From a virus, in the IMG/VR virus record IMGVR_UViG_3300025117_000202, positions 1 through 28,428 of that record: DNA of 28,428 nt, one strand, 5' to 3'. The notes under the pieces are model-generated. The model worked only from the letters and a program-made list of their open reading frames with translations. It was not told where the DNA came from and did not search any database. A program made the translations under genes and the position numbers. Positions 820 through 19,437 of the stretch are shown here, one piece after another (within the stretch, counting starts at the first letter, position 1; each line of letters begins with the position of its first letter).

Positions 820-1589
820 AAAAGTTCCCGTCATGGTTCTCCCTAGCGCTAGTCCCGGCGGCGGCGGTCGCCTTGCTCTTCTTGGCCTCTCCCCGCGTCT
901 CAGGCCAGTCGCCCGTCTGCTCCTTCACGGGCACGGTCCTCTCTTGCGACGCGCCCCTCGTCATCCGGGTTGCGAACCCGGCAACGGGAGGGACGACGGA
1001 CGTGGCAACACTCGGCCCATCGGGGATCACCTTCAACGCGCCAAATGACAATGCGGACATCGCCTTCCGGCAGAACAACACCGAGCTTCCCGCTTTCTTC
1101 ATGAGGGGGCGGATGCTCTTCTCGTGCCGCCATACATGGGAAGGCGGCGCAGGATGCCCCGGCGTCCAGGGCTCGGCGGGCGATATCATCATAGCAAACA
1201 ACGCGGCCCTTCGCGGCTCGGCCACGGCGGACGGAGGCGCCATGAGCGGGCAGAATCTGACCTTGGCCAAGGTGAACCGATTCAACGGCCCTCAGTTCGG
1301 GATGTATAAGGTCGCGCTGGGGTCAAACCAGGCGATCACCGTGGCATCCCCGGTGGGCGGACTGTTCCTTGTCCATGAGTGGACCCAGGGGCACCAAGCC
1401 GTGTTCATGCAGGGCAACGGCCAAGGTGCAATGGTCATGCACTACGGCGACGGGAACTTCTGGAGCACCGTTGACGCCACGCCCAGCCGGATCGTTGTGA
1501 CCTACATGCCATCGACCGGGCTGGTCCAAATCCAGAACCGCTTTCCGTGGACGGCGCTCATCTCGTTCGGGACGTTCGGGGGGATGTAG
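816..1589 (+). CDS. exported beta-rich hypothetical protein with signal peptide
   Basis: This 257-residue protein starts at a GTG overlapping the previous stop. The N-terminus is a textbook signal peptide: KK at residues 2-3, a hydrophobic core at about 8-24, and a likely signal peptidase I site after VSG near residue 30. No lipobox cysteine is seen. The mature part has several cysteines (in the CSF and SCD segments and around CRHTW...GCPG), then a glycine- and valine-rich beta domain that resembles a jelly-roll or fibre-tip fold. A signal peptide is odd for a virion protein, since virions assemble in the cytoplasm. The product may therefore act in the periplasm or at the cell surface. Function is unknown. 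Confidence 0.6.
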   Translation: MKKFPSWFSLALVPAAAVALLFLASPRVSGQSPVCSFTGTVLSCDAPLVIRVANPATGGTTDVATLGPSGITFNAPNDNADIAFRQNNTELPAFFMRGRMLFSCRHTWEGGAGCPGVQGSAGDIIIANNAALRGSATADGGAMSGQNLTLAKVNRFNGPQFGMYKVALGSNQAITVASPVGGLFLVHEWTQGHQAVFMQGNGQGAMVMHYGDGNFWSTVDATPSRIVVTYMPSTGLVQIQNRFPWTALISFGTFGGM

Positions 1590-4255
1590 TGGTCGCTGCG
1601 GTTGAACAGACACCCGTCCAGATCAACGCCAGCATCCCGCTCGGGCCGACGCAGGAGCGCTTCATCATATGCCCGGCGCGGGAGGTGTGCATAGGGGGTT
1701 CGAGAAGGGAAGGGAAGGCACTCCCGTTGGATACGCCTATCCTTACGCCATCCGGATGGGAAAAAATCGGCGACATCTCAGTTGGCGATAGAATCATGGC
1801 GCAAGACGGCACAGAAACGTACGTGTTGGCCGTTTTTCCACAACCCGTACAGGATTTGTGGCGGTTTCATTTTTCCGATGGCACTTCTGCGGTCAGCACA
1901 GACGACCATTTGTGGGCGGTAGAGACTATATGGGATCGGCATGGCGGGGTCGAGGCGGATACGCGAGAACGATCAAGGGGCATATTCAGCGCTGTAGGTA
2001 TGTTGAAAAACAAAGCGACCCGCAGGGCGTTGGCGAGAAAAACTCCATACAAAATTGTTCGCGCTAGCGAACTCAGGGAAGCCCTGACCGACGGCCGATG
2101 GGCCAGTGGGGGCAGATGGTCACTGCCGTTATCCCAATCGATGCAGTTCAAGAAGAGAGAAACAAAAATTCATCCATATATTCTTGGAACATTGCTGGGG
2201 GATGGGTGTATTTCGCAGAAAGAGGTCTACTTTACCAACGATGACGAAGAGGTCCTGGAAAATATCCGGTTGCTTTTGCCTTTGGATATGCACTTAACGA
2301 GGATGAAATCAGCCAAGTATGGATATTCTCTTTCCCGCAAAATACCCAAGGGAAGGAATCCAATTTATGTAGAATTGGAGTCCCAAAGCTTGGCTGGCAC
2401 AAATTCCCATAGCAAATTTATTCCGAATGAATATTTGTGGAACGACGCCGAATCAAGGTTGGCCCTTTTGCAGGGCCTGATGGACACGGATGGATGGGTT
2501 AGCAAACACGCCAACAGTGCCCTGTTTGCTTCTACTTCCATCCAACTGATTCAAGGAATGGAATTTTTAGTTCGATCGCTTGGTGGTGTGGCTAGGCGGC
2601 AAAAGAAAGTCAAGGTCGGGTATCGTTTGACGATCAGCCTTCCGAACGGAATGTGCCCATTCAGAACGTCCAGGAAGGCACGATACATTACCGACAAAAA
2701 AATGTGGATTCCGAGGCGGTTTATCACTGCTTGTGAATATGAGGGGAATGGCGAGTCGGTTTGCATTGAAATCGACAATCCATCCGGCTTATTTGTGATC
2801 AATGATTTCATCGTTACGCATAATAGCTTTTCCGGATATTCGGCCATGATATCCCACGCCCTGCGGCAGGATCCCAGCAAATGGCCCATCCCCTGGGTCG
2901 TCTGCCGTGATACGGCCACGAACCTGCACCGGACGACCGTGCCCGGGGCCTACAAGTGGGAGCAGCAGTGCAAGCAGGCCATGTGCCTCCAGATCGGCCA
3001 GCACGCCGCGGACGGGCGCGTCACCGCCGAGGCGGCGAACAGCATTATCCAGTCCCTCCGGGCCAGTCCATGGGTGCGCCTGACCAAGCGATCCAACACC
3101 GAGGTCATGTGGCTACGCACGGGGCAACTGGACGCAGACGGGCGCGTGGTGTGGCCCGTCATGGCCTACCTGTTTGGGATGGATCAGTTGAAGGACATCT
3201 CGCGCTTCCAGTCCATGGAGCTTGGCGGGGGGTGGTTCGAGGAGCCCGCCCCGGCGGCCGAGGACGACATCGGCGGCGGCATCCAGGAGGTCGCCTGGAT
3301 CGTCATGCTCTCCTCGCTCAACTACGAGGTGGATGCGCCTCGCGCCCAGATCACCATGAACCCACCGGACGAGGATCACTGGACGTGGCGGCGGTTCGTG
3401 GCGGACAACGAGGACCCCGACAACCGCGTCTATCTTCACATCCCCGTGGGCGAGAACAAGCATCTGCCCCAGTGGTACAGGGAGCACATCGACAAGGCGT
3501 TAAAGGCCAGGCCGGATCTGCACCGGAGGCTGGTACAGGGACTGCCAGGGTTCATCCAGAAGGGCAAGCCAGTCGCCTCAAACTTCAGCGAGGATCTGCA
3601 CGTCTCCAAGGTTCCGCTGACGTTCAACAAGTTCGCCAAGGAGATGTATCTGGGATGGGATTTCGGGTTCAATCCGACCGCCATCGGAATGCAGCAGACG
3701 ACCACGGGGCACTTCCATTTCCTGTTCGCCTTCACGGGCGAGAACATGGGCGTGCGCCAGTTCATTGACTACATACTTAAACCATACATGTCCACCCACG
3801 TCCCTTCGGCGACGCTCTGGCACATCGGCGATCCGCAGGGAAACGTGGGGAGCGACACGGACATCATGGCCACTCCGGTCAGGGAAATCATCGACAAACT
3901 TGGCGGCTACTGGCGGTCGGGGCCGCAGAAATGGGATCCGCGCCGCGAGGCGGTCCACAACTCACTGGCCGCGATTCACATGGGCAAGCCGCTCGTTCAG
4001 ATCGACAAGGCCAACTGCGGCATTCTAATCAAGGCGTTGCGCGGGGCTTGGCATTACCAGCAAGTGGGCCAGGGCCGCGTGTCGGAAGTTCCAAAAAAGG
4101 ATTTCGCGAGCCACCAGGGCGACGCTTACAGCTACTTAATGGCCGTCCTCATGGGCGAGCGCGGCATCGTGAGAAAGGATCTCCGCGTCCGCTCCGCCTC
4201 CTACTCCAAGGGGACGCCACGCGAGAAGATCTCGGCGGGGATGGTGCGGGCATGA
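1589..4255 (+). CDS. terL: terminase large subunit precursor interrupted by an intein
   Basis: This is the ATP-driven DNA-packaging motor and headful nuclease. I prefer the GTG at 1589, which overlaps the previous stop (TAGTG) and follows a G-rich stretch at about 1576-1583. An ATG at 1547 would overlap the upstream gene by 43 bp. The precursor is 888 residues and becomes about 519 after removal of the intein, normal for this family. The Walker A motif GSRREGK|S is split by the intein and restored by splicing. A Walker B-like segment WFEE lies near residues 549-552. The RNase H-like nuclease follows, with likely metal-binding aspartates in GWDFGF (D691), GDPQGN (D748) and GDAYSY (D845). Portal lies just downstream. 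No small terminase subunit was recognised nearby. Confidence 0.93.
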   Translation: MVAAVEQTPVQINASIPLGPTQERFIICPAREVCIGGSRREGKALPLDTPILTPSGWEKIGDISVGDRIMAQDGTETYVLAVFPQPVQDLWRFHFSDGTSAVSTDDHLWAVETIWDRHGGVEADTRERSRGIFSAVGMLKNKATRRALARKTPYKIVRASELREALTDGRWASGGRWSLPLSQSMQFKKRETKIHPYILGTLLGDGCISQKEVYFTNDDEEVLENIRLLLPLDMHLTRMKSAKYGYSLSRKIPKGRNPIYVELESQSLAGTNSHSKFIPNEYLWNDAESRLALLQGLMDTDGWVSKHANSALFASTSIQLIQGMEFLVRSLGGVARRQKKVKVGYRLTISLPNGMCPFRTSRKARYITDKKMWIPRRFITACEYEGNGESVCIEIDNPSGLFVINDFIVTHNSFSGYSAMISHALRQDPSKWPIPWVVCRDTATNLHRTTVPGAYKWEQQCKQAMCLQIGQHAADGRVTAEAANSIIQSLRASPWVRLTKRSNTEVMWLRTGQLDADGRVVWPVMAYLFGMDQLKDISRFQSMELGGGWFEEPAPAAEDDIGGGIQEVAWIVMLSSLNYEVDAPRAQITMNPPDEDHWTWRRFVADNEDPDNRVYLHIPVGENKHLPQWYREHIDKALKARPDLHRRLVQGLPGFIQKGKPVASNFSEDLHVSKVPLTFNKFAKEMYLGWDFGFNPTAIGMQQTTTGHFHFLFAFTGENMGVRQFIDYILKPYMSTHVPSATLWHIGDPQGNVGSDTDIMATPVREIIDKLGGYWRSGPQKWDPRREAVHNSLAAIHMGKPLVQIDKANCGILIKALRGAWHYQQVGQGRVSEVPKKDFASHQGDAYSYLMAVLMGERGIVRKDLRVRSASYSKGTPREKISAGMVRA
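1718..2824 (+). other. intein with LAGLIDADG homing endonuclease, class 3 sequence signature
   Basis: This is a 369-codon protein insertion between Lys and Ser of the terminase P-loop. Intein residue 1 is Ala, not Cys or Ser. Block A reads LDTPILTPSGW. Block B has T61-x-x-H64 followed by Trp66. Two LAGLIDADG-type motifs, ILGTLLGDG (about 155-163) and LLQGLMDTDG (about 250-259), mark a homing endonuclease. Block F has Cys349 (VCIEID). Block G ends Thr367-His368-Asn369, followed by the +1 Ser of the P-loop. Trp at B:12, Cys at F:4 and Thr at G:5 form the WCT set of class 3 inteins, where the block F Cys replaces the missing residue-1 nucleophile. The insert is visibly more AT-rich than the flanking terminase sequence, which suggests recent acquisition. 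Confidence 0.93.
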
Positions 4256-4440
4256 ATGGCGAGAGAAAGTTTGAGCCATATCCGGTGTTCACCGAATGTA
4301 TCCACTGCGGCGGACCCGTTGGTATGGGGCATGGAAACACGGGCGTGTGTTCCTGGTGCATCATCCGGCCGGGGAAGTTCCAGATGAGGCAGAAGACCTA
4401 TTTCGCGAAGGAGATGACAGTTGTCCCGAAACCCGTCTGA
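4252..4440 (+). CDS. small zinc-ribbon-like protein (62 aa)
   Basis: The ATG at 4252 overlaps the terminase stop (ATGA). The 62-residue product carries two CxxC pairs, Cys16-x-x-Cys19 and Cys33-x-x-Cys36, with glycines around them, a layout that would bind one zinc ion. The C-terminus is basic. The last 20 bp overlap the start of the portal gene, so it belongs to the packaging operon. Its role is unknown; such mini zinc ribbons are often accessory nucleic-acid or protein binders. Confidence 0.65.
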   Translation: MNGERKFEPYPVFTECIHCGGPVGMGHGNTGVCSWCIIRPGKFQMRQKTYFAKEMTVVPKPV

Positions 4441-6466
4441 TCGGCCGGGCGTCGTCCCCGCGAAGAACTCAGAGGCGAACCTCTCTGCGCTCAAGATCGT
4501 CCAGCGCTATATCGACGAGGGCGGCGAGGATGCGGCCCGCACCGATCGCCTGGAGCGCAACAAGGACAACTACCGCGAGTTCCGCGGGGAAAAGGACTGG
4601 AGCCACAAGTCGCGCGGGCAGAGCCGGGAACATCTGCCCAAGATGCGAGTGGCCTTCGAGCAGATATCGGCCATCTTCAAAAAGTCGCTCGTTGACCTCG
4701 GCGGCTCCTGGTACGACATCGAAGTTCGCGGCGACGCCCTGCCCGGCATAACGGGAAACGATCTGCGCAAGCTCCTGAACGCCCATCTCCTTTCCAATGA
4801 GATCAACTTCCCCACCATGATTTCGGACGCTGTGAAGCAGGGTAGCTTGGAATCCCTGATGATCGCCAAGGTGTTTGGTCGCTTTGTGCCCAAGAGGCGG
4901 TTCATTGCCGAGGTTGCCGGGGCCGAGATGGTGCGCGACGACTCGGGCGTCCCTGTCGGCATCCAGCCCCGCTTCCGATTCAAGTCCAGCGAGGAGCGCG
5001 TGTGGCGGCTGGCCGTGAGCCTTATCCCAACCGAAGACTACATCCCTGACCCGGACGGCCTGGGACTGTACGAGATACACGAGGTCACGCGCGACATCTG
5101 GCAGGTTCGCGAGATGGCTGAGATCGGCGTCTACGATCAGGCCGTGGTGGATCAGATTGTGGCGGGGATGAGCGAGGAGAAGGACCGAAAGCGCGGGGCC
5201 GAGGACGCCCGTGGCAAGCGTCCCCACCGGGGCCGCGCCCAAAAGCGAAAGAAGGTCCGCGTGTCCGAGTGCTGGGCCATCCTGGTGGACGACGATGGCC
5301 GGATTATCACCATCCCAGGATCGAAGGAGAAGGCCCGCAACACCGTCACCACCGTGGTGGACAACCGCTACATGGTGCGCGCCACGTCGCGCAACCCGAA
5401 CTGGAGCGGCTTGCGCCCCATGGTAGCGGCGCCCCTCATCCGAACCCCGCACTCCGTCTGGCACGACGCCCTAGGGGACTACGTCCAGTCCCTCAACAAT
5501 GCCATCGACGAACTGTTCAACCTCATGCTGGACGCGGGCATCAAGGGCGTGTGGGGCATCAGCCAGGTCCGGCCCGAGATGCTCCTGGACGAAGATCAGA
5601 TCAGCGATGGCATCCCGCCACAGGAGACGCTTGTTCTCCGGCCCGGCGTGCCCGCCGACGTGGACGTGTACAAGCGCGTGGACACTGGCTCCAACATCGG
5701 CGAGTCCATCGCCGTGATGAATCTGCTGATGTCGAGCTTCTCCGATGCTTCGATGGTGAACCAGATCGGACTGGGGCAGCTACCAGCTCGCCAAGTCAAG
5801 GCCACGGAAATTTCACTTTCCAGCCAAGCCATGGGCAACTTATTCGACGGAATCACCCGAGACATGGAAGACAGCTTCATCGAGCCCATCCTGGAGCGGG
5901 CTTTCCATCTCGTCATGCAGCACCTGAATGAAATGGACACGGATGAGGTGGTGGCGGCGCTCGGAACCAAGAAAGCCATCATGCTATTGAGCCTGAGCCC
6001 GGAGGAACGCTTCGCCATTTTCGGGAACCGAATCAAGTTCCGCGTGACGGGCCTCTCGTCCGTGGTGAACCGGACGCGGGAGTTCCAGAAGATCCTTGCC
6101 CTCCTGGAGGTCATGGCCTCCAACCCGGCGCTCGGCATGATATTCGCCAAGAAGTATAGCCTCGCCAAGGTGGTGGACCGCCTCGTGCGCTCCATTGACC
6201 TGGACCCAGAGTCGCTGGGCGTGGTGGATGAGCAGGAAGCACAGGCCCAGACGGCCCTTCTCAAGGCCTATGTCCAGGCCCAGCAGGGCGCTCCGTCCAC
6301 TGGGCAGGCCTTCAAAATGCCGGAGGTGGAAGGGAATCTGCCCGCCATTCCGGGCGAGCTTCCGTCGTCCGCAAACGCCGCCCCAGGCAATATCCCGCCC
6401 GGCCTGGAGGGTGGAGGTGGCATGAATGAATTCGAGGGTATGTCACAAACCAGGAGGGCACAGTGA
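4421..6466 (+). CDS. portal protein (podovirus-like)
   Basis: The portal forms the dodecameric ring at the capsid vertex through which DNA is packaged and ejected. The start is a TTG at 4421: an in-frame stop lies at 4415-4417, and a good ribosome site GAAGGAG (4407-4413) sits 7 bases upstream. The product has 681 residues. It is rich in long helices and lacks a signal peptide. A basic linker (RGKRPHRGRAQKRKK, about residues 264-278) lies before the central domain, a helical stem/crown region follows, and the tail is Gly/Pro-rich. Size, position just after the terminase and the segments with PHSVWHDALGDYVQSLNNA-type helices fit long podoviral portals. The call rests on synteny and overall look more than on a single motif. 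Confidence 0.8.
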   Translation: MSRNPSDRPGVVPAKNSEANLSALKIVQRYIDEGGEDAARTDRLERNKDNYREFRGEKDWSHKSRGQSREHLPKMRVAFEQISAIFKKSLVDLGGSWYDIEVRGDALPGITGNDLRKLLNAHLLSNEINFPTMISDAVKQGSLESLMIAKVFGRFVPKRRFIAEVAGAEMVRDDSGVPVGIQPRFRFKSSEERVWRLAVSLIPTEDYIPDPDGLGLYEIHEVTRDIWQVREMAEIGVYDQAVVDQIVAGMSEEKDRKRGAEDARGKRPHRGRAQKRKKVRVSECWAILVDDDGRIITIPGSKEKARNTVTTVVDNRYMVRATSRNPNWSGLRPMVAAPLIRTPHSVWHDALGDYVQSLNNAIDELFNLMLDAGIKGVWGISQVRPEMLLDEDQISDGIPPQETLVLRPGVPADVDVYKRVDTGSNIGESIAVMNLLMSSFSDASMVNQIGLGQLPARQVKATEISLSSQAMGNLFDGITRDMEDSFIEPILERAFHLVMQHLNEMDTDEVVAALGTKKAIMLLSLSPEERFAIFGNRIKFRVTGLSSVVNRTREFQKILALLEVMASNPALGMIFAKKYSLAKVVDRLVRSIDLDPESLGVVDEQEAQAQTALLKAYVQAQQGAPSTGQAFKMPEVEGNLPAIPGELPSSANAAPGNIPPGLEGGGGMNEFEGMSQTRRAQ

Positions 6467-6555
6467 TGCCAAAGAACAAGCCAGAGATGTACTTCGGGGG
6501 CATGAAGAAAAGCGGCAAGGGGACCAAGAAGCGCCCGCCCAAGAAGGGGAAATAG
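6466..6555 (+). CDS. 29-residue lysine-rich peptide
   Basis: The ATG at 6466 overlaps the portal stop (TGATG) and is preceded by a strong ribosome site GGAGG at 6453-6457, 8 bases away. The peptide begins MPKNKPEMYFGGMKK and is about one third lysine or arginine. Its stop at 6553-6555 abuts the ATG of the next gene. Very small basic proteins of this type occur next to portal genes in many phages, but their role is not settled. A non-coding spacer is less likely, given the ribosome site and perfect spacing on both sides. A similar lysine-rich start appears at 28390. Confidence 0.55.
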   Translation: MPKNKPEMYFGGMKKSGKGTKKRPPKKGK

Positions 6556-7359
6556 ATGCTGTCCAGACGGGCCTTTGGCTTTCTAGCGCTTCCCGTCCTT
6601 CCCGACAAGCCCCGTTCCGCAGGCATCACCGTGGCGATCGACCGGGGACTCCATCTGCGCGACGCCATTCTACTGGCCGATAACCGGCCCGGATACGTCG
6701 ACGCCGTGAAGCTTGGATGGGGTACATCGGCCATCGTCCCCGAAGGCACTTTGCGAGACAAGATCGGTGCCTACAGGGCCAAGGATATCGGCGTCATGCC
6801 GGGCGGCACCCTCATGGAGATCGCCGCCGTGGAGGGCGTGTACGAACGGTTCCTGGACGCATGCGGAGACTATGGCTTCACGCACATTGAGGTCTCAAAC
6901 GGAACATTCGATCTGGCCGGTGAGAAGCCCAGCCTGATACGCGAAGCCAAGCGGCGGGGCTTCGCTGTCTTCGCCGAGGTGGGCCGGAAGGATTCCTGCT
7001 ACACGGGCTACGAATCCGCCGAAGTGTGGCTCGTCGAGGCCATGTCCGACCTGGATGCCGGGGCCGACAAGATCGTCCTGGAGGGACGCGAGAGCGGAAC
7101 ATGCGGCATCTACAACGGGGACGGAATCGTGAAGGCGGACATCATCGATCTCCTGGCCCGTGAGATCGGCCCGGAGCGGTTCATCTTCGAGGCCCCACAG
7201 AAGCGTCAGCAAGTCGAGATGATCCGGCGCTTCGGTAACGAAGTCAATCTCGGCAACATTCAGCCTGATGACGTGGTGCCACTGGCCACCCTGCGCCTGT
7301 GCCTCAGGAGTGACACGGCCAAGATGTTCCGGGAACCCGCCCTGCGAGGAATGCAGTGA
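6556..7359 (+). CDS. comA: phosphosulfolactate synthase (ComA family)
   Basis: Family members add sulfite to phosphoenolpyruvate to give (R)-2-phospho-3-sulfolactate, the first step of coenzyme M synthesis in methanogens and of sulfolactate synthesis in some bacteria (YitD in Bacillus). The 267-residue product has the full set of family blocks in order: KLGWGTS (52-58), PGGTLME (82-88), IEVSNGT (111-117), EVGRKD (141-146), EGRESG (176-181), FEAPQK (211-216), NLGNI (231-235) and LRSDT (250-254). The length is normal for this TIM-barrel family and there is no break. It lies between the 29-residue gene and a GTGA-coupled small gene, so it is part of the phage operon. No ComB phosphatase or ComC dehydrogenase is recognisable in this window. 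Family membership is firm; activity on sulfite is inferred. Confidence 0.9.
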   Translation: MLSRRAFGFLALPVLPDKPRSAGITVAIDRGLHLRDAILLADNRPGYVDAVKLGWGTSAIVPEGTLRDKIGAYRAKDIGVMPGGTLMEIAAVEGVYERFLDACGDYGFTHIEVSNGTFDLAGEKPSLIREAKRRGFAVFAEVGRKDSCYTGYESAEVWLVEAMSDLDAGADKIVLEGRESGTCGIYNGDGIVKADIIDLLAREIGPERFIFEAPQKRQQVEMIRRFGNEVNLGNIQPDDVVPLATLRLCLRSDTAKMFREPALRGMQ

Positions 7360-7565
7360 GCTACGAGAGCGAGCAGAAGCTGCGCACCATGCGGCGGTGG
7401 CTGGCCTATAGCGAGCAGGACTTCGAGAAGATGGATCCCATGCGCCGAGACGAATACCTGAACGACGGCGTCAACATGTGCGTGGAGGTCCTCAAGTCGC
7501 TGCACGCCGACACGCTGAAGCTGCGGGAGCGGGCCGAATCGCGCGGTCCGATATTGGTGCCGTGA
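7356..7565 (+). CDS. small helical hypothetical protein (69 aa)
   Basis: This starts at a GTG overlapping the comA stop (GTGA). The product is 69 residues, almost entirely helical and charged, with no cysteine pairs or membrane segment. Its own stop overlaps the GTG of the next gene, so comA and the two small genes look like one translationally coupled set. Not recognised. Confidence 0.55.
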   Translation: MSYESEQKLRTMRRWLAYSEQDFEKMDPMRRDEYLNDGVNMCVEVLKSLHADTLKLRERAESRGPILVP

Positions 7566-7881: not shown

Positions 7882-7910
7882 TTGCAATGCGGACGTAAAT
7901 TTGCTATATA
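7882..7910 (+). promoter_or_regulatory. sigma70-like promoter
   Basis: A TTGCAA -35 box (7882-7887) and a TATATA -10 box (7905-7910) are separated by exactly 17 bases, in one of the few AT-rich spots of the window. They sit in the gap between 7876 and the gene starting at 7944. Each box matches 4 of 6 consensus positions. Confidence 0.5.
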
Positions 7911-7943
7911 TTGTGTATCGCCCGTCTGGAGGGCATACATTTC

Positions 7944-8231
7944 GTGCCCCGGCGACCCGTCGATCCGAACCGCGACCTGGATCGTCTGCGCGACAAGGTG
8001 GCCCAGGGCCTCCGGGCCGCCCAGGCCATGCCGTTTCTCCGTCCCTACCTAGACCTCCGGCGCGCCGAACTGCTCGTCGCTCTCAAGGCGTATGCCGACA
8101 ACTCAAACAAAGACAAGGTGTTAGAGACAGCTATCCGGATATCCGAAGTGGAAACCATCCTGATCCAGATGCAGGCCGACACCCGGGCGGGGCAGTCCGC
8201 GGGCGCCCGTATCACGGGAGGGCGTGGATGA
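7944..8231 (+). CDS. small helical hypothetical protein (95 aa)
   Basis: The preferred start is GTG at 7944, with GGAGGG at 7928-7933 about 10 bases upstream. A TTG at 7911 is possible but overlaps the promoter -10 region. The product is highly charged and helical, with a long central helix (about residues 12-75). It ends in an ATGA overlap with the methyltransferase gene. No motif was recognised. Its own promoter suggests a separate transcription unit with the next two genes. Confidence 0.55.
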   Translation: MPRRPVDPNRDLDRLRDKVAQGLRAAQAMPFLRPYLDLRRAELLVALKAYADNSNKDKVLETAIRISEVETILIQMQADTRAGQSAGARITGGRG

Positions 8232-9196
8232 GGGAGGCGGATATCCGCCCACCCGAAGCCTACGCCTCGCTACTCTCGGCCGCACGGCAAGCCGCCGTGG
8301 ACATGGGAATGCCCCCGGTGCCAGTCCCATGCCCCGCCTGCGGCTGGGCGGGAACGTCCCCGGTCGCCTTCTTCCGCGACGAATACTCATACGCCGAATG
8401 CGGACAGTGCGGCAGCCTGTACGCCGATTCGAGACCCACAGCCGACGCCCTCGCCCAGTTCTACGGGCGGCTCGACGCCTTCGGGGACTTTTACGGCGCC
8501 AGCGCGGAGGCCCGCCTCCGGGATATCGTCCTGCCTCGGGCACACCGCATCGTCCAGGCGTCTATGCGCCACGGGGTGCGCGGAACCTTTTGCGACATCG
8601 GCTGCGGCCCCGGCCACCTGCTGGCGGCGGTGGAAGGGCTTCGGTGGTTCAACGGCCATTTCGGCATCGAGCCCTCCAGTGCGACAGCGGACGCCGCCCG
8701 CATCCTGGGATTCGCCGTGGCCCCCTACGCCCTGGAGGAAGGCCCACTGCGCCAGGAAGCGGACTTCGCCGCGGCCTTTGAGGTCCTGGAACACGTCTTC
8801 AGTCCGAAAGCGTTCCTCGAATCGGCGCGGGCGCTACTGGTTCCGGGCGGGCTGCTCATGCTGACCACGCTGACCTGCGATGGTTGGGACATCGGCGAAC
8901 TGTGGGAGAGGCACCCGTCCGTCTGCCCGCCGCTTCACCTGAATCTGTTGTCTATGCAGGGCCTGCGCGACTTGATGGCGCGGACAGGCCTGGAACTGCT
9001 GGACATATCCACGCCGGGCCGTTTGGACGCCGATATTGTCCGCAACGCGATGGCCACCCGGCCGGACGCCTCCGTCTCGCGCTTCGCCCGTAGATTGTCC
9101 TCCGCCCCGCAGGAAACCCTCGACGCCTTCCAGGACTTCCTGCGGGCGCATCGCATGAGTTCCCATGTGGAAATCCTGGCGAGGCGGCCAGCCTGA
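8228..9196 (+). CDS. class I SAM-dependent methyltransferase with N-terminal zinc ribbon
   Basis: This is a 322-residue protein, ATG start overlapping the previous stop. The N-terminus has a zinc-ribbon pattern: Cys35-x-x-Cys38 and Cys58-x-x-Cys61, the second pair followed by LYADSRP. A Rossmann-fold methyltransferase follows: motif I DIGCGPGH at 123-130, the acidic end of strand 2 in GIEPS (E148), the FEVLEHV segment at 184-190 and a LLVPGGLL loop at 203-210. This build is typical of methyltransferases encoded in surface polysaccharide and natural-product clusters, where small molecules or sugars are the substrates. It does not look like a DNA methyltransferase, as no DPPY/NPPF-type motif is visible. 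The gene sits between two promoters in the accessory block and is coupled to a 77-residue gene. Confidence 0.85.
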   Translation: MREADIRPPEAYASLLSAARQAAVDMGMPPVPVPCPACGWAGTSPVAFFRDEYSYAECGQCGSLYADSRPTADALAQFYGRLDAFGDFYGASAEARLRDIVLPRAHRIVQASMRHGVRGTFCDIGCGPGHLLAAVEGLRWFNGHFGIEPSSATADAARILGFAVAPYALEEGPLRQEADFAAAFEVLEHVFSPKAFLESARALLVPGGLLMLTTLTCDGWDIGELWERHPSVCPPLHLNLLSMQGLRDLMARTGLELLDISTPGRLDADIVRNAMATRPDASVSRFARRLSSAPQETLDAFQDFLRAHRMSSHVEILARRPA

Positions 9197-9429
9197 TGGC
9201 CCGAAACGTACAGAAAACCCTATATCTGACGGAAAACATTTCTGAAACTGACGGAACGGGTGACATCGAGGTCCCGCCCCCCATGTTACTACTGCCCATC
9301 ACCGTAGACTTCACCGGCGAGGTCGTTCTGCGGTACAACCATGGGAAATTGGTCGGAGTGGATCGTCATGTCAGGGATCGCTACAAGCCCGTTCCCCTCT
9401 CAGATCGTGGTTTCAGGCGAGACACGTAA
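9196..9429 (+). CDS. hypothetical protein (77 aa)
   Basis: The ATG at 9196 overlaps the methyltransferase stop (TGATG). The product has a beta-strand-rich N-terminal half, with a hydrophobic PPPMLLLPITVDF segment near 27-39, and a basic C-terminus. No motif was recognised. It is the last gene of the accessory block. Confidence 0.5.
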   Translation: MARNVQKTLYLTENISETDGTGDIEVPPPMLLLPITVDFTGEVVLRYNHGKLVGVDRHVRDRYKPVPLSDRGFRRDT

Positions 9430-9469: not shown

Positions 9470-9626
9470 TCCCCATGGGAATATATGTTTGGCCCTCAAC
9501 AGGCCCATTCGGAAAACGGGAGGCCCATCCGCTCGTAGGCAAAACTGAATAGCGCGCCCCTTCAGCGGGGCGAGAGGCTTCCCAGGGCACAGCCCGCCGA
9601 CCTTCAACGGTCCGGCGGGCTTTTTT
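9470..9626 (+). promoter_or_regulatory. untranslated leader of scaffold gene, with hairpins ending in a terminator
   Basis: No gene is seen between 9430 and 9639. From the promoter a transcript would run about 150 nt. It would pass a 6-bp hairpin (CGCCCC 9555-9560 with GGGGCG 9567-9572) and a weaker GGCC pairing upstream, then reach an intrinsic terminator. The arrangement suits an attenuator, an antitermination target or a short terminated RNA. I could not match it to a known riboswitch class. Confidence 0.4.
9592..9626 (+). terminator. Rho-independent terminator immediately upstream of scaffold gene
   Basis: The left arm GCCCGCCGACC (9592-9602) pairs with the right arm GGTCCGGCGGGC (9609-9620), leaving one bulged base and the loop TTCAAC. 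Six T residues (9621-9626) follow directly. The stem is long and GC-rich, so it should be a strong stop. It lies only 13 bases before the scaffold ATG. Confidence 0.85.
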
Positions 9627-9639
9627 GTTGGAGAAATGT

Positions 9640-10479
9640 ATGCCGGACGAACCGAGACCCGACGCGAGCCTACCCGAACCCGTCCGTGAGGGGGACACCC
9701 TTCCGGCGGCGGCCACAGCCCCGCCCGCCAAGCCTCAAAGCGCGGCCCCGGCTCCACGACCCCCGGCGTCCGAACCCCCGAAGGCGGCTCAACCCGCCCC
9801 GGAACCCAAGCCCGAGCCTCCGGCGGAACCCAGGCCCGAACTCGTCACCATCAAGTACGAGGGCCAGGAGTTCCAGCTTCCCAAGGAAGCGGCCGAGGCG
9901 TGGCATCGCAGGCAGGAGGCGTTCGACCGCGGCTTCAAAACCGTCAAGGACGAACTCGACGCCATCAGGGCGTCCATGCCTCAGCCCCCCAAGCCCGCCA
10001 CGCCGAGCGAGGAGGAAATCCGCGAGCAGTTGGCCACCCGGCTGTTGACAGAGCCCGACAAGGTCTTCGCCGAGTGGAAAGATCAGATGCGCAAGGAGCT
10101 CACCGAGGAGTACCAAGCCGATGTCCGGACCCGGGAGTTCCAGGCGAAATTCTGGGGCGACAATCATGAAATCCTGCCCTACCGGGAAGTGTTCGACGGC
10201 CTCCTGATGAAGAACGCAGGTTCCTACATCAAGGAGGGCCTCACGGATCAGCAAGCGTATGAGCGAACGGCGGACGCGGTTCGGAAAATGATCCTGTCCA
10301 TCAAGGGCAATGGTCAGCCAGCCGCCAATCCCGCCGATCAGCACGTCGAGGAACCCGGCCCCTCGGGGGGTCCGGCTGCCGTAACGGAACCGGCGGACGA
10401 GGGCGTCAGCAGGAGCCTCACGGAGGCCATCAAGCGTCGGCAGAACCAGAAGAACCCGGTTCTGGCCGGGGCGAGATAG
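9640..10479 (+). CDS. putative scaffolding protein
   Basis: The preferred start is ATG 9640, with GGAG at 9630-9633. In-frame TTG codons at 9625 and 9628 lie in the terminator tail and are unlikely. The product has 279 residues. Residues 1-67 are a low-complexity Pro/Ala/Glu segment. A short beta segment (VTIKYEGQEFQLP, about 69-81) is followed by long charged helices to about residue 225, then a disordered Pro/Gly/Glu tail ending in a basic helix. An acidic, helical, disordered-ended protein placed directly before the major capsid gene is the standard profile of a scaffold that guides procapsid assembly and binds the shell through its basic C-terminus. The call rests on composition and position. 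Confidence 0.75.
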   Translation: MPDEPRPDASLPEPVREGDTLPAAATAPPAKPQSAAPAPRPPASEPPKAAQPAPEPKPEPPAEPRPELVTIKYEGQEFQLPKEAAEAWHRRQEAFDRGFKTVKDELDAIRASMPQPPKPATPSEEEIREQLATRLLTEPDKVFAEWKDQMRKELTEEYQADVRTREFQAKFWGDNHEILPYREVFDGLLMKNAGSYIKEGLTDQQAYERTADAVRKMILSIKGNGQPAANPADQHVEEPGPSGGPAAVTEPADEGVSRSLTEAIKRRQNQKNPVLAGAR

Positions 10480-10511
10480 CCCTCTACGCCGCGCAAGCGA
10501 GCGAGGACAAA

Positions 10512-11459
10512 ATGGCCGAGTTCACCTGGACCTTCGATGTCACCGACAGCGTGTACAAGAACCACGCGCTGAGTTCCAAGATGCGCGAGACGAGCGTGGC
10601 GCAGTCGGTGGTCATGGAGCACTTCAACCCCGAGCCAAACTTCGGCAAGGGGCGCGGCGAGTCCGTGACCATCACCAGAATCCACGCCATCACCGAGCCC
10701 ACCACCGCGCAGCTCACCGAGAACGTCCCCATTCCCGAGGACACGTTCGCCATCAGCCATCAGCGCATCACGGTGGCCGAGTTCGGGCGGGCGATTCCCT
10801 ACACCAGCCTCTCCGAGGACCTGACGGACTTCAACGTCCAGAACCAGGTGCAGCGCGAACTGCTGAAGCAGATGCGCCTCGTCCTGGATACGCGCGGAGC
10901 CACGGCCCTCAAGTCCGGCCAAATCAAGTACGCCGTCACCGGACTCTCCAGCAACAACATAACCACGAACGGGGCCTTCGGGGCCACGTCCAGCCAGAAC
11001 ATGAACGTGACCCACGCGGCGCTCATCCGTGACCGTCTGATGGATATCCAGTTCCTGGATCCGGACGCCAGCGGGGAGTACAAGGCTGTCTTCCGAACGA
11101 AGGGCCTCCGCGGCATCAAGGACGACCCTCTCTTCGAGGAGTGGCACAAGTACACCACACCCGAGATGAAGGCCAACTCCGAGGTCGGCAAGGTCGAGCA
11201 GATCCGCTTCCAGGAGACCAACCACTCCAACGCCTTCGGCACGGTCGGAACAGGCTCCGTGCTCGGCGAGGGCGTGGTCTTCTCCGAGGACGTGGGCGTG
11301 TTCATCGAGGCCGTGACGCCCGAGCTGCGCATCGGGCTGGCGCAGGACTACGGCCGCCGGAAACTGGTGGCCTGGTACGGCGTCCTCCAGTGGGCGCAGC
11401 CCTACAGCGACAGTGGAAACGCGGGTCAGGCCCGAAGCCTCCACGTCGGCTCGCTCTAG
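10512..11459 (+). CDS. major capsid protein, N4-gp56-like
   Basis: This 315-residue protein would form the icosahedral shell with the HK97 fold. The start ATG 10512 follows GCGAGGAC. The N-terminal half has the pattern seen in N4-gp56 family capsid proteins: GRGESVTITRI (about 47-57), TTAQLTENVPIPED (64-77), then TVAEFGRAIPYT (87-98) and a helical stretch with LLKQMRLVLD. A DPDASGEYKAVFR segment follows in the peripheral-domain region. It sits directly after the scaffold gene and before a pair of small structural genes, the expected order. The position makes the capsid role secure; the exact family is less so. Confidence 0.85.
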   Translation: MAEFTWTFDVTDSVYKNHALSSKMRETSVAQSVVMEHFNPEPNFGKGRGESVTITRIHAITEPTTAQLTENVPIPEDTFAISHQRITVAEFGRAIPYTSLSEDLTDFNVQNQVQRELLKQMRLVLDTRGATALKSGQIKYAVTGLSSNNITTNGAFGATSSQNMNVTHAALIRDRLMDIQFLDPDASGEYKAVFRTKGLRGIKDDPLFEEWHKYTTPEMKANSEVGKVEQIRFQETNHSNAFGTVGTGSVLGEGVVFSEDVGVFIEAVTPELRIGLAQDYGRRKLVAWYGVLQWAQPYSDSGNAGQARSLHVGSL

Positions 11460-11471
11460 GAGGAGGCCACC

Positions 11472-11951
11472 ATGGCGGGTGATGTCAGAACGCGGCTACG
11501 GTTCCAGGCGGTTCGCGGAGCCACACAGTCCACTAGGGAGACGACCTCCGGGGATCTGCTGGTTGGTGCCAGCAACGATTTCGTCAAGTACACGGCCATC
11601 GAGAAAGAGCGCATCCACCGGGCCATCGTGTATGTGGTCACGGCGGATGCCACGGCGACGCTTGATGTTCAGCTCATCCGGGCGAACACGATCGATCAGG
11701 CGCTCACCGGCGGCACGACCATCGACAGCATCCTGATCCCCACCACGCACGTTGCGGGCCAGGGCTTTTACAAGGACTTGAGCCCTGCCTCGGGGGACAT
11801 GGAGCCAGGGGAGCAATTCGTCTTCCGCGCCAAGAGCGGCCAGGTGGGCGGAGGTGAGAACTATCACCTCAGTTGCTGGGTGATTGTGGAGCCCAAGAGC
11901 GAGGCCGACGCCAACCTTCCTTACCCCCAGCGCATGAACCAGTCGTCCTAG
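11472..11951 (+). CDS. small structural protein, paralogue A (decoration-like)
   Basis: This is a 159-residue protein with a good ribosome site (AGGAGG just upstream). It is beta-rich with no transmembrane segment or cysteine pair. It shares many blocks with the next gene: RLRFxAVRxAT near the start, a GDLL motif, TIDQAL in the middle, a xPGxxxVF segment, then VVEP or VIVEP and a final RMNxSS. The two therefore arose by tandem duplication. Position right after the capsid gene suggests a capsid decoration or head-completion protein. That role is inference. Confidence 0.7.
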   Translation: MAGDVRTRLRFQAVRGATQSTRETTSGDLLVGASNDFVKYTAIEKERIHRAIVYVVTADATATLDVQLIRANTIDQALTGGTTIDSILIPTTHVAGQGFYKDLSPASGDMEPGEQFVFRAKSGQVGGGENYHLSCWVIVEPKSEADANLPYPQRMNQSS

Positions 11952-11978
11952 CGCTGCGGACTGGATAAGGAGGATACC

Positions 11979-12467
11979 ATGGCAAGCAAAACTTCGGATC
12001 GGCTGAGATTCAAGGCGGTCCGGGAGGCGACGGCCAGCGCAAGGAATACGGCGACCGGGGATCTCCTTGGCGACTACCGGGGCAGCACGACCGGGGATGT
12101 GCTCAAGTATTTCTCCGCCGCCGGGGACAAGCTGAAGAGCGTGATCGTGGCGGTAATTACGGGAGACACAGGAAACGACGCACAGATCGCGGTCCTGCGA
12201 ACTCAGACCATCGATCAGGCGCTCTCCGCGAGCGGAGTCGCAACGCTGGATCTCATCACCATCGCCAGCGTGGACAAGGTGCGCGGGATGCTGACGTACA
12301 AGGACATGGGCGGCATGAGCCAGGACATCGATCCCGGGCAGGAGATCGTCTTCCAGACCTACAGCGGAGCCCAAGCGAGCGACAGGTTCGCGTGCTACGT
12401 CGTGGTCGAGCCGAATGACGAGGACGCCGGGGCGGTGTTTCCGGGGCGGATGAACAAGTCGAGTTAG
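11979..12467 (+). CDS. small structural protein, paralogue B (decoration-like)
   Basis: This 162-residue protein starts at ATG 11979 after a very strong AAGGAGG site. It is a diverged copy of the gene before it, aligned over the full length (DRLRFKAVREAT, TGDLL, QTIDQAL, DPGQEIVF, VVVEP, RMNKSS). Copy B carries a short insertion, GDYRGSTTGD, after GDLL. Both copies have intact frames, so each probably has its own place in the virion. The stop is followed at once by a strongly paired 99-nt element. Confidence 0.7.
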   Translation: MASKTSDRLRFKAVREATASARNTATGDLLGDYRGSTTGDVLKYFSAAGDKLKSVIVAVITGDTGNDAQIAVLRTQTIDQALSASGVATLDLITIASVDKVRGMLTYKDMGGMSQDIDPGQEIVFQTYSGAQASDRFACYVVVEPNDEDAGAVFPGRMNKSS

Positions 12468-12566
12468 GCATCCGGCCGGGAGGGGAGCCCTGATCGCGGA
12501 TCGGCTCCTCTCTGCCGCAAAAGGGACTGATTCCGTCTTCATTGTCCCCTCCCGGCCACCGGATGC
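12468..12566 (+). ncRNA. branched inverted-repeat element, possible structured RNA
   Basis: The 112-bp gap contains a 99-nt element whose ends pair over 18 bp. GCATCCGG (12468-12475) plus CCGGGAGGGG (12476-12485) match CCCCTCCCGG (12546-12555) plus CCGGATGC (12559-12566), with a 3-base bulge. Two further hairpins lie inside: AGCC/GGCT with an inner GATC/GATC (12486-12506), and GGGAC/GTCCC (12523-12548). The second competes with part of the outer stem. The layout is a possible three-way junction. There is no T run, so it is not a standard terminator. It ends one base before the next gene's GGAGG. The pairing is seen directly; an RNA function is inference. Confidence 0.5.
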
Positions 12567-12579
12567 TGGAGGCAGATAA

Positions 12580-13074
12580 ATGGCAATCCAGACCGGCGAC
12601 GTGACCATCAGCAACCTCAGCCTCCTGGGCAAGCGGGCGGCCGGGGGCGGGCGCTACCGGAATACCGCTACCCTCTCCGTGGCGAGCGGGGACATCTACG
12701 GCACCGACCACCGCATCCCGGTGGACAAGGCCGCCCTTGGATGCCCCACGGCCATTGAATCGTTCGAGTTCCTGAACGACGGGGCTGCGGGATATCAGTA
12801 CCGCTACCACAAGGACAATGAGGATATCCTCCTCTACGTCCCCAGGCTCCTGTCGGGAGCGACGACCATGGACGCGGGGTTAGTCACGACCCTGGACGCC
12901 GTCCGGATGCTTGGGGCCGCACGCCAGTACACTGGCGTGGCGCTGATCATCACCCAGGACTCGGGCGCGGGAAACGCCATCAACACGAGCTACCAGATGC
13001 CCACCCTCATCGAGCTAACGTCGGGCGACATCATGGTGGCCATCACCCTGGATGTGGCCTACGTGGGCTACTAG
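12580..13074 (+). CDS. hypothetical virion structural protein (164 aa)
   Basis: The ATG at 12580 has GGAGG at 12568-12572. The product is 164 residues, beta-rich, without cysteine pairs or membrane segments. No close likeness to the paralogous pair upstream was seen. It lies in the head gene cluster, so a head or head-tail joining component is plausible. Not recognised by motif. Confidence 0.6.
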   Translation: MAIQTGDVTISNLSLLGKRAAGGGRYRNTATLSVASGDIYGTDHRIPVDKAALGCPTAIESFEFLNDGAAGYQYRYHKDNEDILLYVPRLLSGATTMDAGLVTTLDAVRMLGAARQYTGVALIITQDSGAGNAINTSYQMPTLIELTSGDIMVAITLDVAYVGY

Positions 13075-13101
13075 ACCGCCCGGGACAATCGGGGAGATTG
13101 C

Positions 13102-13659
13102 ATGAGTCCGAAGCAGCTGACTGAAGACGAGCTTCTCAGGCCGACGAAATACAAGGTCGATCACGGCACCATGACCATGATGCCGGAGAAGACCATCCCC
13201 ACCATGACCATCACGGTCAAGGGGTCGCCTCCCGTGTTCCTGCGCGAGGGGGTCTTCTACGACCAGGGCGGGAACGAGTACGACATGGATCAGTTCCCCG
13301 GCGGGGAGAAGGGCCTCATCCGCCACCTCGTTGAGACGGCCAATCCGGAGGTCCTGGCCATGCACGGCCTGGCAGTGGACGGGGCGGCCACGGCGCCCAA
13401 GGCCGATGTGGCCCCCGTGCGGCGACTGCCGCCCAAGGAAACTTTCAGGCCCTCCGACACCGGGGCGGAGAAGGCGGCCCTGCTGGGCACCCTGGGCGAG
13501 GAACGCGAGATGGACATCGAGTCCATATCCAGCGTCCTGGGCCTCCATCCGGAGCGGGTCCGGAAGCTGTTGTCCGACCTGGGAGATCAGATCGAGCGGA
13601 CGGGCGAGGGCAAGCGCGGAAGCCCCTACCTCTATAGGCTGGCGAGGAAAACCGAATAG
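13102..13659 (+). CDS. hypothetical protein with winged-helix-like C-terminal domain
   Basis: This is a 185-residue protein with a GGGGAG ribosome site. Residues 1-90 form a mixed domain of unknown type with a TMTITVKGSPPVFLREG strand pair near 34-50. Residues 91-120 are a Pro/Ala linker. Residues about 121-182 look like a winged helix: helix LLGTLGEE, helix IESISSVLGL, recognition-type helix ERVRKLLSDLGD, then a basic turn and strand GKRGSPYLYRLA. Such domains normally bind DNA, or sometimes mediate protein contacts. Its position among head genes is unusual for a regulator. It may be a virion protein that touches DNA, or a regulator encoded within the operon. Confidence 0.6.
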   Translation: MSPKQLTEDELLRPTKYKVDHGTMTMMPEKTIPTMTITVKGSPPVFLREGVFYDQGGNEYDMDQFPGGEKGLIRHLVETANPEVLAMHGLAVDGAATAPKADVAPVRRLPPKETFRPSDTGAEKAALLGTLGEEREMDIESISSVLGLHPERVRKLLSDLGDQIERTGEGKRGSPYLYRLARKTE

Positions 13660-13671
13660 GGGGGGGCGTCT

Positions 13672-14967
13672 ATGTTGCACGGTACAGCCCTCCTCGTGCT
13701 GATCGGTTGGATACTCTGGCTATCGACCGTGTGCGACCGCGCGCGGGACGTGACGCCCAACTGGCGTCGGTGGACCCACATCCAGTGGGCCGCCGGGGCA
13801 GCCTTCGTCCTCGCCTCGCCGTCCTGGCCCTTCACCCTCCTGTACCTCTCACTGTGCGCCGCCTATTGGCTTCCCTGGGTTGAGGCCAAGTCAGGCGCTT
13901 TGAACGACTGGTTCATCAAGGTGTTCCTATTCGGCGGCTTCTATGTGGCCGCCATGCCCCGCATGGAGGCCTGGATGCTGCCCTGGCTCCTGCTTTTCGT
14001 CCTCATTTGCGGGTCTTCCGTCGCCTTCTGGATCGCCATGGTCAAGTGGCGCGGGCCGCGCTACGCCCTCCGCATCCTCGGTTGGGAATATCCCTGCTGG
14101 GAGATGTGGCCCGACCGGGATGAGCCCACGCCGGGCGGTTTCAACTGCCACGGGCGGATGATGAATCCCGTTCATGCGGGCGCATGGGGATCTATCTGCG
14201 TTTTCGCCTCCCTGGGGCTTGGGGCGATGTGGCATCCCGCATGGACGGCCACGGCGGCGATTGGTGCCTTCATCCTATGGGGCTCTGGAAGCCGCGGCGG
14301 GGCGCTGAATATGGCCGCAGGAGGATTGGCGTGGGCGCTGGCGGGCGGACCCTACGCGGATTGGGTGTGGCTGGGCGTGTTCCTCTGCGCGGCACTGGCC
14401 AGCTACCGCAAGGTGCGGGACTGGTCCTGGGCTGGGAATCTGTCCTCATGGCGCTTCCAGGTCTGGTGGGACTCCGTGCGCCTGTGCCTGGGAAACCCGT
14501 TCCGGGCGTGGGAATCTGCGATGTTCTGGCTCATCGGGACGGGTCCGTTCGGATGGCAGGACATCGCCGAGAAGCATCTGCGCAAGTATGGGGAGCGTTC
14601 CTGGCTGTCGCCGCACAACGAATACGTCCACATACTGTGCGAGCATGGGCTACTCGGGCTTGCGGCTTCGGTCATTTTCATAGGGTGGACATTGGAGCCC
14701 GCATGGCGTTCCGGGAGCGAGGCGGGCGCAGCCTACCTCGGGGTGGCTGGGGCGCTTCTGGCCACCGCCGCATGGTCATTCCCGTGGCGCGGGACGGCCC
14801 TCATCGAGGGCGCCACGGGGCGCTTCATGGACACCGGGGCGATCCGGACCGCGGACGGGAAAGAGAAGAAGGTTCTCGTGCCAGAGATTCAATATGGTTC
14901 GGCAGGCGCACCCATATTCACATGGCTCACGGCAGTGTGGGCGGTTCTCGGACCGCACATGGGATGA
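13672..14967 (+). CDS. O-antigen ligase/polymerase-like membrane protein (Wzy/WaaL family)
   Basis: This 431-residue inner-membrane protein has about ten hydrophobic segments. An eight-G run (13659-13666) serves as the ribosome site. Three marks of the Wzy/WaaL superfamily are present in order: GSGSRGG (204-210), the NPF...GTGPFGW block (275-295) and SPHNEYVHILCEHGLLG (313-329), the last being the loop and helix that in WaaL holds the catalytic histidine. Family members join undecaprenyl-linked sugar polymers to each other or to lipid A core. In a phage, such a protein could alter or block O-antigen on the infected cell. It lies inside the structural operon with no sign of a separate promoter. 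Length is typical and the frame is intact. Confidence 0.75.
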   Translation: MLHGTALLVLIGWILWLSTVCDRARDVTPNWRRWTHIQWAAGAAFVLASPSWPFTLLYLSLCAAYWLPWVEAKSGALNDWFIKVFLFGGFYVAAMPRMEAWMLPWLLLFVLICGSSVAFWIAMVKWRGPRYALRILGWEYPCWEMWPDRDEPTPGGFNCHGRMMNPVHAGAWGSICVFASLGLGAMWHPAWTATAAIGAFILWGSGSRGGALNMAAGGLAWALAGGPYADWVWLGVFLCAALASYRKVRDWSWAGNLSSWRFQVWWDSVRLCLGNPFRAWESAMFWLIGTGPFGWQDIAEKHLRKYGERSWLSPHNEYVHILCEHGLLGLAASVIFIGWTLEPAWRSGSEAGAAYLGVAGALLATAAWSFPWRGTALIEGATGRFMDTGAIRTADGKEKKVLVPEIQYGSAGAPIFTWLTAVWAVLGPHMG

Positions 14968-14973
14968 TGGACA

Positions 14974-15951
14974 ATGGCCCTAGACCAGCTACTTGATAAC
15001 GCCGACATCGTCGATCACGCTCTCGACTTCGTGAACGAGAAGACGGACGGGACCTCGGAGTACGAGGATCAGGCCACCTCGCTCCTCAAGGAGGCTCTCC
15101 AGACCCTCGTGGACGGCGGCACCGTCTTCGGGTCTGACATCGACGAGGAGTGGCTCTGGCTCCAGAAGTCCCCGCCGGGCACCATCACCCTCCAGCCAAA
15201 GATTCCCGTCACCTTCGCTGCCGACAACGGAAGCCAGTCCATCGACTTCGGATCGGAGCCGGTGGCCAGCATCGACTCCAGTGTGGAGGGCTGGTTCTTC
15301 AAGGCCGATGACGAATCTGACATCTACCGCATCGCCACCCACGACGCAGGCGGACACTACGCCTCTCTTGACAGTGTCTTTACGGGCACGACTACCTCCA
15401 GCGACAGCGGAAAAGTATTCAAGCTGGAATACGATCTCCCCTCGGACTTCCTGCGCTTCTACGCACCCATCCGGGCGCAGCGCGACCGCCAGCGCGAGAT
15501 CACGGTGGGGACGGAGGAGGCCATGGACCGGGATTGGCCCCTAGTGGACGTGGAGGCTGGGATGCCCTCGCGGGCCGCCTTCTCGGATCGGGACACCCTG
15601 CGCTTCAACCGCTACGCCGACAAGGATATGATCCGGCTGGAGCTTCCATATCTCTACGATCCGGGCAGTCCGGCCAACACAATCGACGCGACGCTGCCTG
15701 TCCCGGAAGCGCATTACGGTTTTTTTGTCTTCTATATCGCCCATTTCATTGCGATCCTGAAAAAAGAGTCCGACAAGGCCGCGCAGGCGGAGCGCTTGGC
15801 GGCCAATGCCCTTTCGCGCATGATCGCGGCCAACCGCCGCGTGAAGAAGTCCGCACAGCGGAGCTTGGGCAAGATCATCCCGCGCCAGGGAGACCTGGAT
15901 CGGTTCAACAGGCCAGTCAGAACTTCGGGCGGGTTCATCATCACGGGGTAG
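14974..15951 (+). CDS. putative head-tail adaptor / connector protein
   Basis: The product is 325 residues from ATG 14974. It starts with an acidic helical region (1-50), has a beta-rich middle with a Ser/Thr/Asp-rich stretch (about 80-150), then the LPSDFLRFYAPI segment (about 154-165), and ends with a long basic helix (about 260-310). Adaptors that extend the portal in short-tailed phages have similar helix-beta-helix builds and lie just before the tail-hub gene, as here. No signal peptide. The call is mainly from gene order. Confidence 0.55.
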   Translation: MALDQLLDNADIVDHALDFVNEKTDGTSEYEDQATSLLKEALQTLVDGGTVFGSDIDEEWLWLQKSPPGTITLQPKIPVTFAADNGSQSIDFGSEPVASIDSSVEGWFFKADDESDIYRIATHDAGGHYASLDSVFTGTTTSSDSGKVFKLEYDLPSDFLRFYAPIRAQRDRQREITVGTEEAMDRDWPLVDVEAGMPSRAAFSDRDTLRFNRYADKDMIRLELPYLYDPGSPANTIDATLPVPEAHYGFFVFYIAHFIAILKKESDKAAQAERLAANALSRMIAANRRVKKSAQRSLGKIIPRQGDLDRFNRPVRTSGGFIITG

Positions 15952-15954
15952 CCG

Positions 15955-17541: not shown

Positions 17542-17981
17542 TAGAGATGAAGCGGCCCGATTTCATCGAATATTTCACGGACGTGCGCGGCCGAACCCAC
17601 ATCCGGAACGTCTACTGTAAGTGTTGCGGAACGCTCATCCAGCGCGGAGACATCGTCCGGGATCGGGAGGGCGTCCCCGTCCCACGTCTGCGGCCTACGG
17701 ATCAGTACGTGGACCTCTATGTGGCCTGCGAGGCGCGTGACGGAACGCATCGGCGCAAGTCCACTCCCGTGTGCTCGGACTGCGCGTCCCGTGACATCGG
17801 GCCGGACGAACTGGAGGCCATACACCGCTGCGATTGCGAGCGGGGCAGGGAACGCCACGCCCACTCCGGCAACCTGGATCCGAAGGTCATCGCGGACATG
17901 GAGGACCGGGAGTCGATGCGCCCGATACGGAAGATCGGCTACTGCGTCCCAGGCTATGCCATCACGGGGGAGGGCCGGTGA
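17538..17981 (+). CDS. cysteine-rich hypothetical protein (147 aa)
   Basis: The ATG overlaps the preceding stop. The product has YCKCCG (Cys27, 29, 30) and Cys79-x-x-Cys82, with a further CDCERG near 98-103. These could form one or two zinc sites. The N-terminal 25 residues (PDFIEYFTDVRGRTHIRNVY) lead into the first knuckle. No nuclease or helicase motif. Its stop overlaps the GTG of the next gene. It sits inside the tail cluster, but its role is unknown. Confidence 0.55.
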   Translation: MIEMKRPDFIEYFTDVRGRTHIRNVYCKCCGTLIQRGDIVRDREGVPVPRLRPTDQYVDLYVACEARDGTHRRKSTPVCSDCASRDIGPDELEAIHRCDCERGRERHAHSGNLDPKVIADMEDRESMRPIRKIGYCVPGYAITGEGR

Positions 17982-19428: not shown

Positions 19429-19437
19429 GAGCAAGTC

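Follow-up and report, generated by a model that had tools for sequence, protein, structure and literature searches.

Phages carry auxiliary genes of sulfur metabolism, including those of the cysH, sox and dsr types. The locus described here raises the question whether a phage may also encode a working phosphosulfolactate synthase (ComA), and what such an enzyme would do in an infected cell. The analysis covers IMG/VR record IMGVR_UViG_3300025117_000202 over 28,428 nucleotides, the whole of this stretch being referred to as the window. The phage is known from metagenome DNA alone, and its comA lies intact amid shell-protein genes, with no second viral case found in the searches reported below. 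The gene probably encodes a catalytically competent phosphosulfolactate synthase, which a tailed phage carries as cargo (an auxiliary metabolic gene) within its late operon for virion structure. The ComA family is well known, and the surprise lies in the viral carrier rather than in the fold.

Genomic setting of comA

The features of the region are as follows.

1547..4255, plus strand: terminase large subunit (TerL) with a LAGLIDADG, intein-like insertion (PHROGs terminase matches, PF14528)
4421..6466, plus strand: portal / head-tail connector (PHROG 332, E 6e-21)
6466..6555, plus strand: 29-aa basic ORF; TGATG overlap with the portal stop, direct TAG-ATG junction with the comA start
6556..7359, plus strand: comA, phosphosulfolactate synthase family, predicted TIM barrel, 267 aa, ATG start (PF02679, phmmer match to 1qwg, structure model)
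7356..7565, plus strand: 69-aa ORF, its GTG overlapping the comA stop (GTGA)
8228..9196, plus strand: class I SAM methyltransferase (PF13489, E 3e-19, scanned within ORF 7901-9196)
9196-9429: 77-aa ORF
9625..10479, plus strand: scaffold-like protein (position before the major capsid gene; homologues similarly placed in relatives)
10512..11459, plus strand: major capsid protein (MCP; PHROG 1357, E 2e-12; 80 IMG/VR relatives)

The PHROGs matches to TerL, the connector/portal and the major head protein, together with an MCP common to 80 IMG/VR loci, bear out the phage origin of the flanking genes, and the window also encodes an SU10-type adaptor and a cell-wall hydrolase. Judged from these matches, the surroundings of comA are a tailed-phage head module. 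The original prediction had placed comA between portal and scaffold genes and described it as tightly spaced with its phage neighbours; the gene order stands, as does the close spacing on the portal side and at the downstream GTGA overlap, but the scaffold gene lies 2.3 kb away. ORFs starting at 7356, 7562 and 7944 follow comA before the methyltransferase, which is a second cargo gene of the portal-capsid interval. The coupling of comA to its neighbouring ORFs within the run of head genes agrees with the unusual position in a virion operon that had been proposed. Between portal and MCP no forward promoter-like site was found, and terminator-like sites were no commoner than in shuffled sequences. 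Moreover, the codon log-odds of comA amount to 0.25 in frame versus -0.42 and -0.50 in the shifted frames, and its codon usage matches that of the phage core genes (TerL, 0.24).

Several other features of the window deserve mention. The LAGLIDADG insert seems to interrupt the TerL Walker A motif (GGSRREGK / ...VTHN-S), and looks like an intein with Ala as its first residue. Directly after the major capsid gene, 11472-11951 and 11979-12467 encode tandem paralogues (39% identical) that are possibly head decoration proteins. A membrane-type protein encoded at 13672-14967 within the structural cluster has a sub-threshold match to Wzy_C (O-antigen ligase), and it may, together with the methyltransferase at 8228-9196, serve modification of host surface glycans. 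Finally, an SPFH/Band 7 domain protein is encoded at 25746-26321, beside ORF 24909-25742, which has GNHG, HHG and GHTH motifs resembling those of a metallophosphoesterase and no ordinary start codon further upstream.

Family membership, predicted structure and phylogeny

The ComA-family profile PF02679 matched the 267-aa ORF with 241.8 bits (E 9e-72, over 238 aa), against a curated gathering cut-off of 25.2 bits, and profile positions 4-243 of 243 were covered. This full-length family match in an open reading frame upholds the earlier description of an intact gene of normal length with all family blocks present. The Pfam scan of ORF 6556-7359 detected no family besides PF02679, and phmmer against the PDB retrieved phosphosulfolactate synthases only: 1qwg (E 8e-50), 24fo, 9cm1 (a designed cage built on ComA) and 1u83 (the B. 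subtilis protein). These sequence matches lie far above chance level. The narrower NCBIfam profile TIGR03849 (arch_ComA equivalog) gave 244.5 bits, below its cut-off of 280, and by this profile the phage protein is not assignable to the equivalog. B. subtilis YitD (233.9), the ComA of a Methylocystis coenzyme M (CoM) operon (267.1) and a further cellular homologue (L019, 244.4) also fall below 280, and the score therefore does not count against function.

The AlphaFold2 model (32 sequences; mean pLDDT 91.4, pTM 0.90) predicts a complete alternating beta/alpha barrel. In VIA-align it superposed on Methanocaldococcus jannaschii ComA (1qwg, PF02679, EC 4.4.1.19) with Z 34.5 and an rmsd of 1.5 Å over 248 residues, in agreement with Foldseek, and on B. 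subtilis YitD (1u83) with Z 30.9, versus about 15 (15.4) for the next-ranked unrelated TIM barrels. The model would thus place the protein among the ComA-type TIM barrels. Aligned with 86 cellular homologues (87 sequences in all), the phage protein retains every position that is invariant in 86/86 homologues, i.e., R20, G23, D29, D49, K52, G83, G84, E88, E112, S114, G116, E141, G143, K145, G169, E176, R178, G181, E212, P214, N234, R247, R251 and T254. The retained set includes the equivalents of E133, Lys137, E168, R170 and E205 (M. jannaschii numbering); K145 aligns with Lys137, the proposed catalytic lysine. The comparison with archaeal ComA suggested in the original prediction thus revealed no loss of an invariant residue. 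The phage protein departs from conserved positions at L15 (usually R), A244 (E in 83/86 homologues) and C249 (G in 81/86), of which the latter two are both within the C-terminal LExLRxGLR motif.

Compared with M. jannaschii ComA, the phage protein shares the fold, the length and the family-invariant residues, whereas it differs in sequence (about 40% identity), in host context, in having no CoM pathway genes as neighbours, and in carrying A and C at the equivalents of E237 and G242. YitD resembles it in fold, in the bacterial N-terminus (LP...KPR..G) and in the EVGxKD motif, and differs in sequence (about 39% identity) and in being encoded by a chromosomal sporulation gene. The ComA proteins of Xanthobacter, Methylocystis and Mycolicibacterium CoM operons belong to the same family (37-41% identity); their genes lie in plasmid operons with lyase-family CoM genes, whereas the phage comA belongs to an operon of head genes and its product falls outside their clades.

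The closest cellular homologues share about 36-45% identity with the phage protein, the nearest being 44-45% identical and none exceeding 45%. In the tree of ComA family sequences, the phage protein forms a lone long branch (about 1.0 substitutions per site). Its sister group is a broad clade of mostly bacterial members (Actinobacteria, Bacteroidota, B. subtilis) at a support of 88/80, a placement that is not firm. The protein does not fall inside any of the subgroups whose pathway is known. Because of this loose placement and the 36-45% identity, no donor or host can be named.

These data bear on a rival reading in which the ComA fold is kept and the reaction is another or an altered one: PEP might, for example, receive a different nucleophile, or the protein might have no catalytic role, as may apply to HSA32. 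To our knowledge, PF02679 includes proteins without an established reaction, of which plant HSA32 is an example. The deep branch, the E244A and G249C replacements and the score under the TIGR03849 cut-off speak for such a change; against it stand the retention of all residues invariant in 86/86 homologues and the tight superposition of the model on 1qwg. Moreover, YitD, which scores lower still on TIGR03849, is tied to sulfolactate (PMC517825), and the similarly scoring L019 has a ComB gene in its own genome. The altered-reaction reading is considered unlikely.

Phage relatives, cargo site and viral survey

The MCP query retrieved 80 IMG/VR loci, all but one 47-57% identical, and many of these approximately 80 relatives also share the portal, whose homologues are mostly 32-40% identical and lie upstream of the MCP gene. 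The longest whole records of these relatives measure 40-48 kb, which indicates that the 28-kb window is a fragment. The order portal, small ORFs, scaffold and MCP is conserved in the relatives, and weak homologues of the 69-aa ORF at 7356..7565 occur between their portal and scaffold genes. Among 46 relatives, the median length of the portal-MCP interval is about 2.0 kb; the interval exceeds 3.5 kb, owing to extra ORFs, in 9/46 (L105, L123, L139, L143, L147, L151, L157, L162 and L169); in the window it is about 4.0 kb, owing to comA, the methyltransferase and small ORFs. The extra genes in these nine relatives identify the interval as a cargo site. Cargo ORFs in the relatives reach 880 aa, and most of the few that were scanned with Pfam had no match. 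Neither tblastn of the 80 relatives' loci nor the profile search of those relatives' whole records that were searched detected ComA, and the simplest reading of comA is an insertion at this site that is specific to the lineage. In genomic terms it has the marks of an auxiliary metabolic gene, being a host-type gene with head genes on both sides and variable among relatives.

A second contig, L093, matches window positions 9749-21456 at 99.96% and starts 2.4 kb downstream of comA; it is another assembly of the phage backbone, ending short of the gene. The occurrence of comA on one contig only could reflect a chimeric assembly, in which a cellular comA had been joined to phage DNA. The TAG-ATG and GTGA couplings to phage ORFs on both sides argue against this, as do the absence of cellular genes above 45% identity and the phage-like codon usage, which also speaks for long residence; a chimera is judged very improbable. 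With respect to the host, the MCP profile gave distant matches (116-153 bits) in 8/398 Pseudomonadota genomes, too weak to name a host, and none in 396 Actinomycetota genomes; no tRNA clue was found.

The survey of phage genomes for the portal-ComA neighbourhood, proposed earlier as a check, yielded no second case in the collections searched. No ComA was found by tblastn in the 50,697 phage records of INPHARED, with a query that matched plasmid ComA homologues down to 27% identity. Protein-pattern and DNA motif scans of IMG/VR with several motif sets were likewise negative (one DNA motif scan gave 5 matches, all without ComA). The pattern scans need exact motif matches, and records nearly identical to the window may be absent from the set searched, so that rarer or divergent ComA could be missed; a wider ComA alignment provided no pattern fit for scanning. 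When lengthened by one residue, one of the pattern sets retrieved 289 homologues from the genome collection. Among BFVD structures only generic TIM barrels were retrieved, and no PHROGs family matched the phage protein. Viral ComA is thus represented by this one gene in the collections searched, and the open-access literature searched yielded no paper that connects phage auxiliary genes with phosphosulfolactate synthase or with sulfolactate. Like the cysH, sox and dsr genes of phages, comA is a host-type sulfur enzyme gene carried as phage cargo; unlike them, it would encode formation of a C-S bond from sulfite, and it is absent from the phage collections searched.

Partner genes and possible role during infection

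ComA forms (R)-phosphosulfolactate from PEP and sulfite, after which ComB removes the phosphate (PMC5695019). For B. subtilis, a role in sulfolactate synthesis is inferred for the yitCD and yitBA-yisZ operons, with YitD making the sulfolactate of the spore, where this compound represents about 5% of the dry weight (PMC517825). Other bacterial ComA relatives reside in CoM-type operons (PMC11507031). ComB is present in 12/15 of the genomes tested that carry ComA homologues, and the ComB match adjoins ComA or shares its ORF in Thiomicrorhabdus, Hydrogenovibrio, Comamonas, Verrucomicrobiaceae, Legionella and others, while lyase-type CoM genes adjoin ComA in Methylocystis, mycobacteria, Acidimicrobiia and Xanthobacter. 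Among the scanned ORFs of the window, a fragment of a phage whose relatives measure 40-48 kb, no ComB, ComC, ComDE or lyase-type CoM gene was detected; the earlier statement that partner genes are missing therefore holds for the 28-kb fragment and does not extend to the whole phage.

We consider it quite probable that the phage ComA is an active enzyme. This reading is favoured by the PF02679 score, the 1qwg and 1u83 matches, the model superposition and the kept invariant residues; by the coupled ORFs, the codon log-odds of 0.25 and the frequent presence of ComB in homologue genomes; by a TIGR03849 score lying between those of YitD and the Methylocystis ComA; and by the substrates of ComA, PEP and sulfite (PMC5695019). 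The sub-threshold TIGR03849 score, E244A, G249C and the long branch count against it, as do the single copy, the lack of a partner gene in the fragment and the inclusion in PF02679 of proteins without an established reaction.

Late in infection, an active phage ComA would add sulfite to phosphoenolpyruvate to form (R)-2-phospho-3-sulfolactate, from which host ComB or another phosphatase would then release sulfolactate. The phage would in this way boost, or install, a sulfonate-making step and simultaneously remove sulfite. There is about an even chance that an active phage enzyme diverts sulfite and PEP of the host into sulfonates of the sulfolactate type. The effects first proposed, a push of sulfite and PEP into phosphosulfolactate or the removal of sulfite, are plausible and may benefit the phage. 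As to that benefit, support of host sulfonate synthesis is preferred over sulfite removal, and the latter over CoM supply. A non-exclusive variant holds that the same reaction takes place and that the phage gains mainly from detoxifying sulfite or diverting PEP, with the sulfonate being irrelevant; it gains from the lack of a partner gene in the 28-kb fragment and loses from the larger size of the relatives and the usual pairing of cellular ComA with ComB, and is regarded as a tentative, minority option. A further variant, support of CoM synthesis in a bacterial host that uses CoM to metabolise alkenes or epoxides, is suggested by the plasmid ComA relatives of Methylocystis, Mycolicibacterium and Xanthobacter in CoM-type operons (PMC11507031). 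This variant appears quite improbable, given that the phage protein lies outside those clades and that the fragment contains no other CoM genes.

An active enzyme would extend the chemistry delivered by phages to the making of C-S bonds from sulfite, and would tie infection to sulfonates such as sulfolactate, a widespread class of nutrients for microbes. Moreover, the stretch between portal and capsid genes in this group of environmental phages is a cargo site worth mining.

The cellular homologues also include ComA-ComB fusions of about 500 aa (L012, L013, L014, L038, L041 and L080; profile-confirmed for L012 only), carried by Gammaproteobacteria, Betaproteobacteria and Verrucomicrobiota. Finally, three Legionella loci (L002, L008 and L021) encode a protein of approximately 975 aa with a C-terminal ComA, followed by a ComB gene, and in L002 an aminotransferase gene lies 5' of the ComA protein gene; these loci possibly represent a sulfonolipid or sulfonate pathway.
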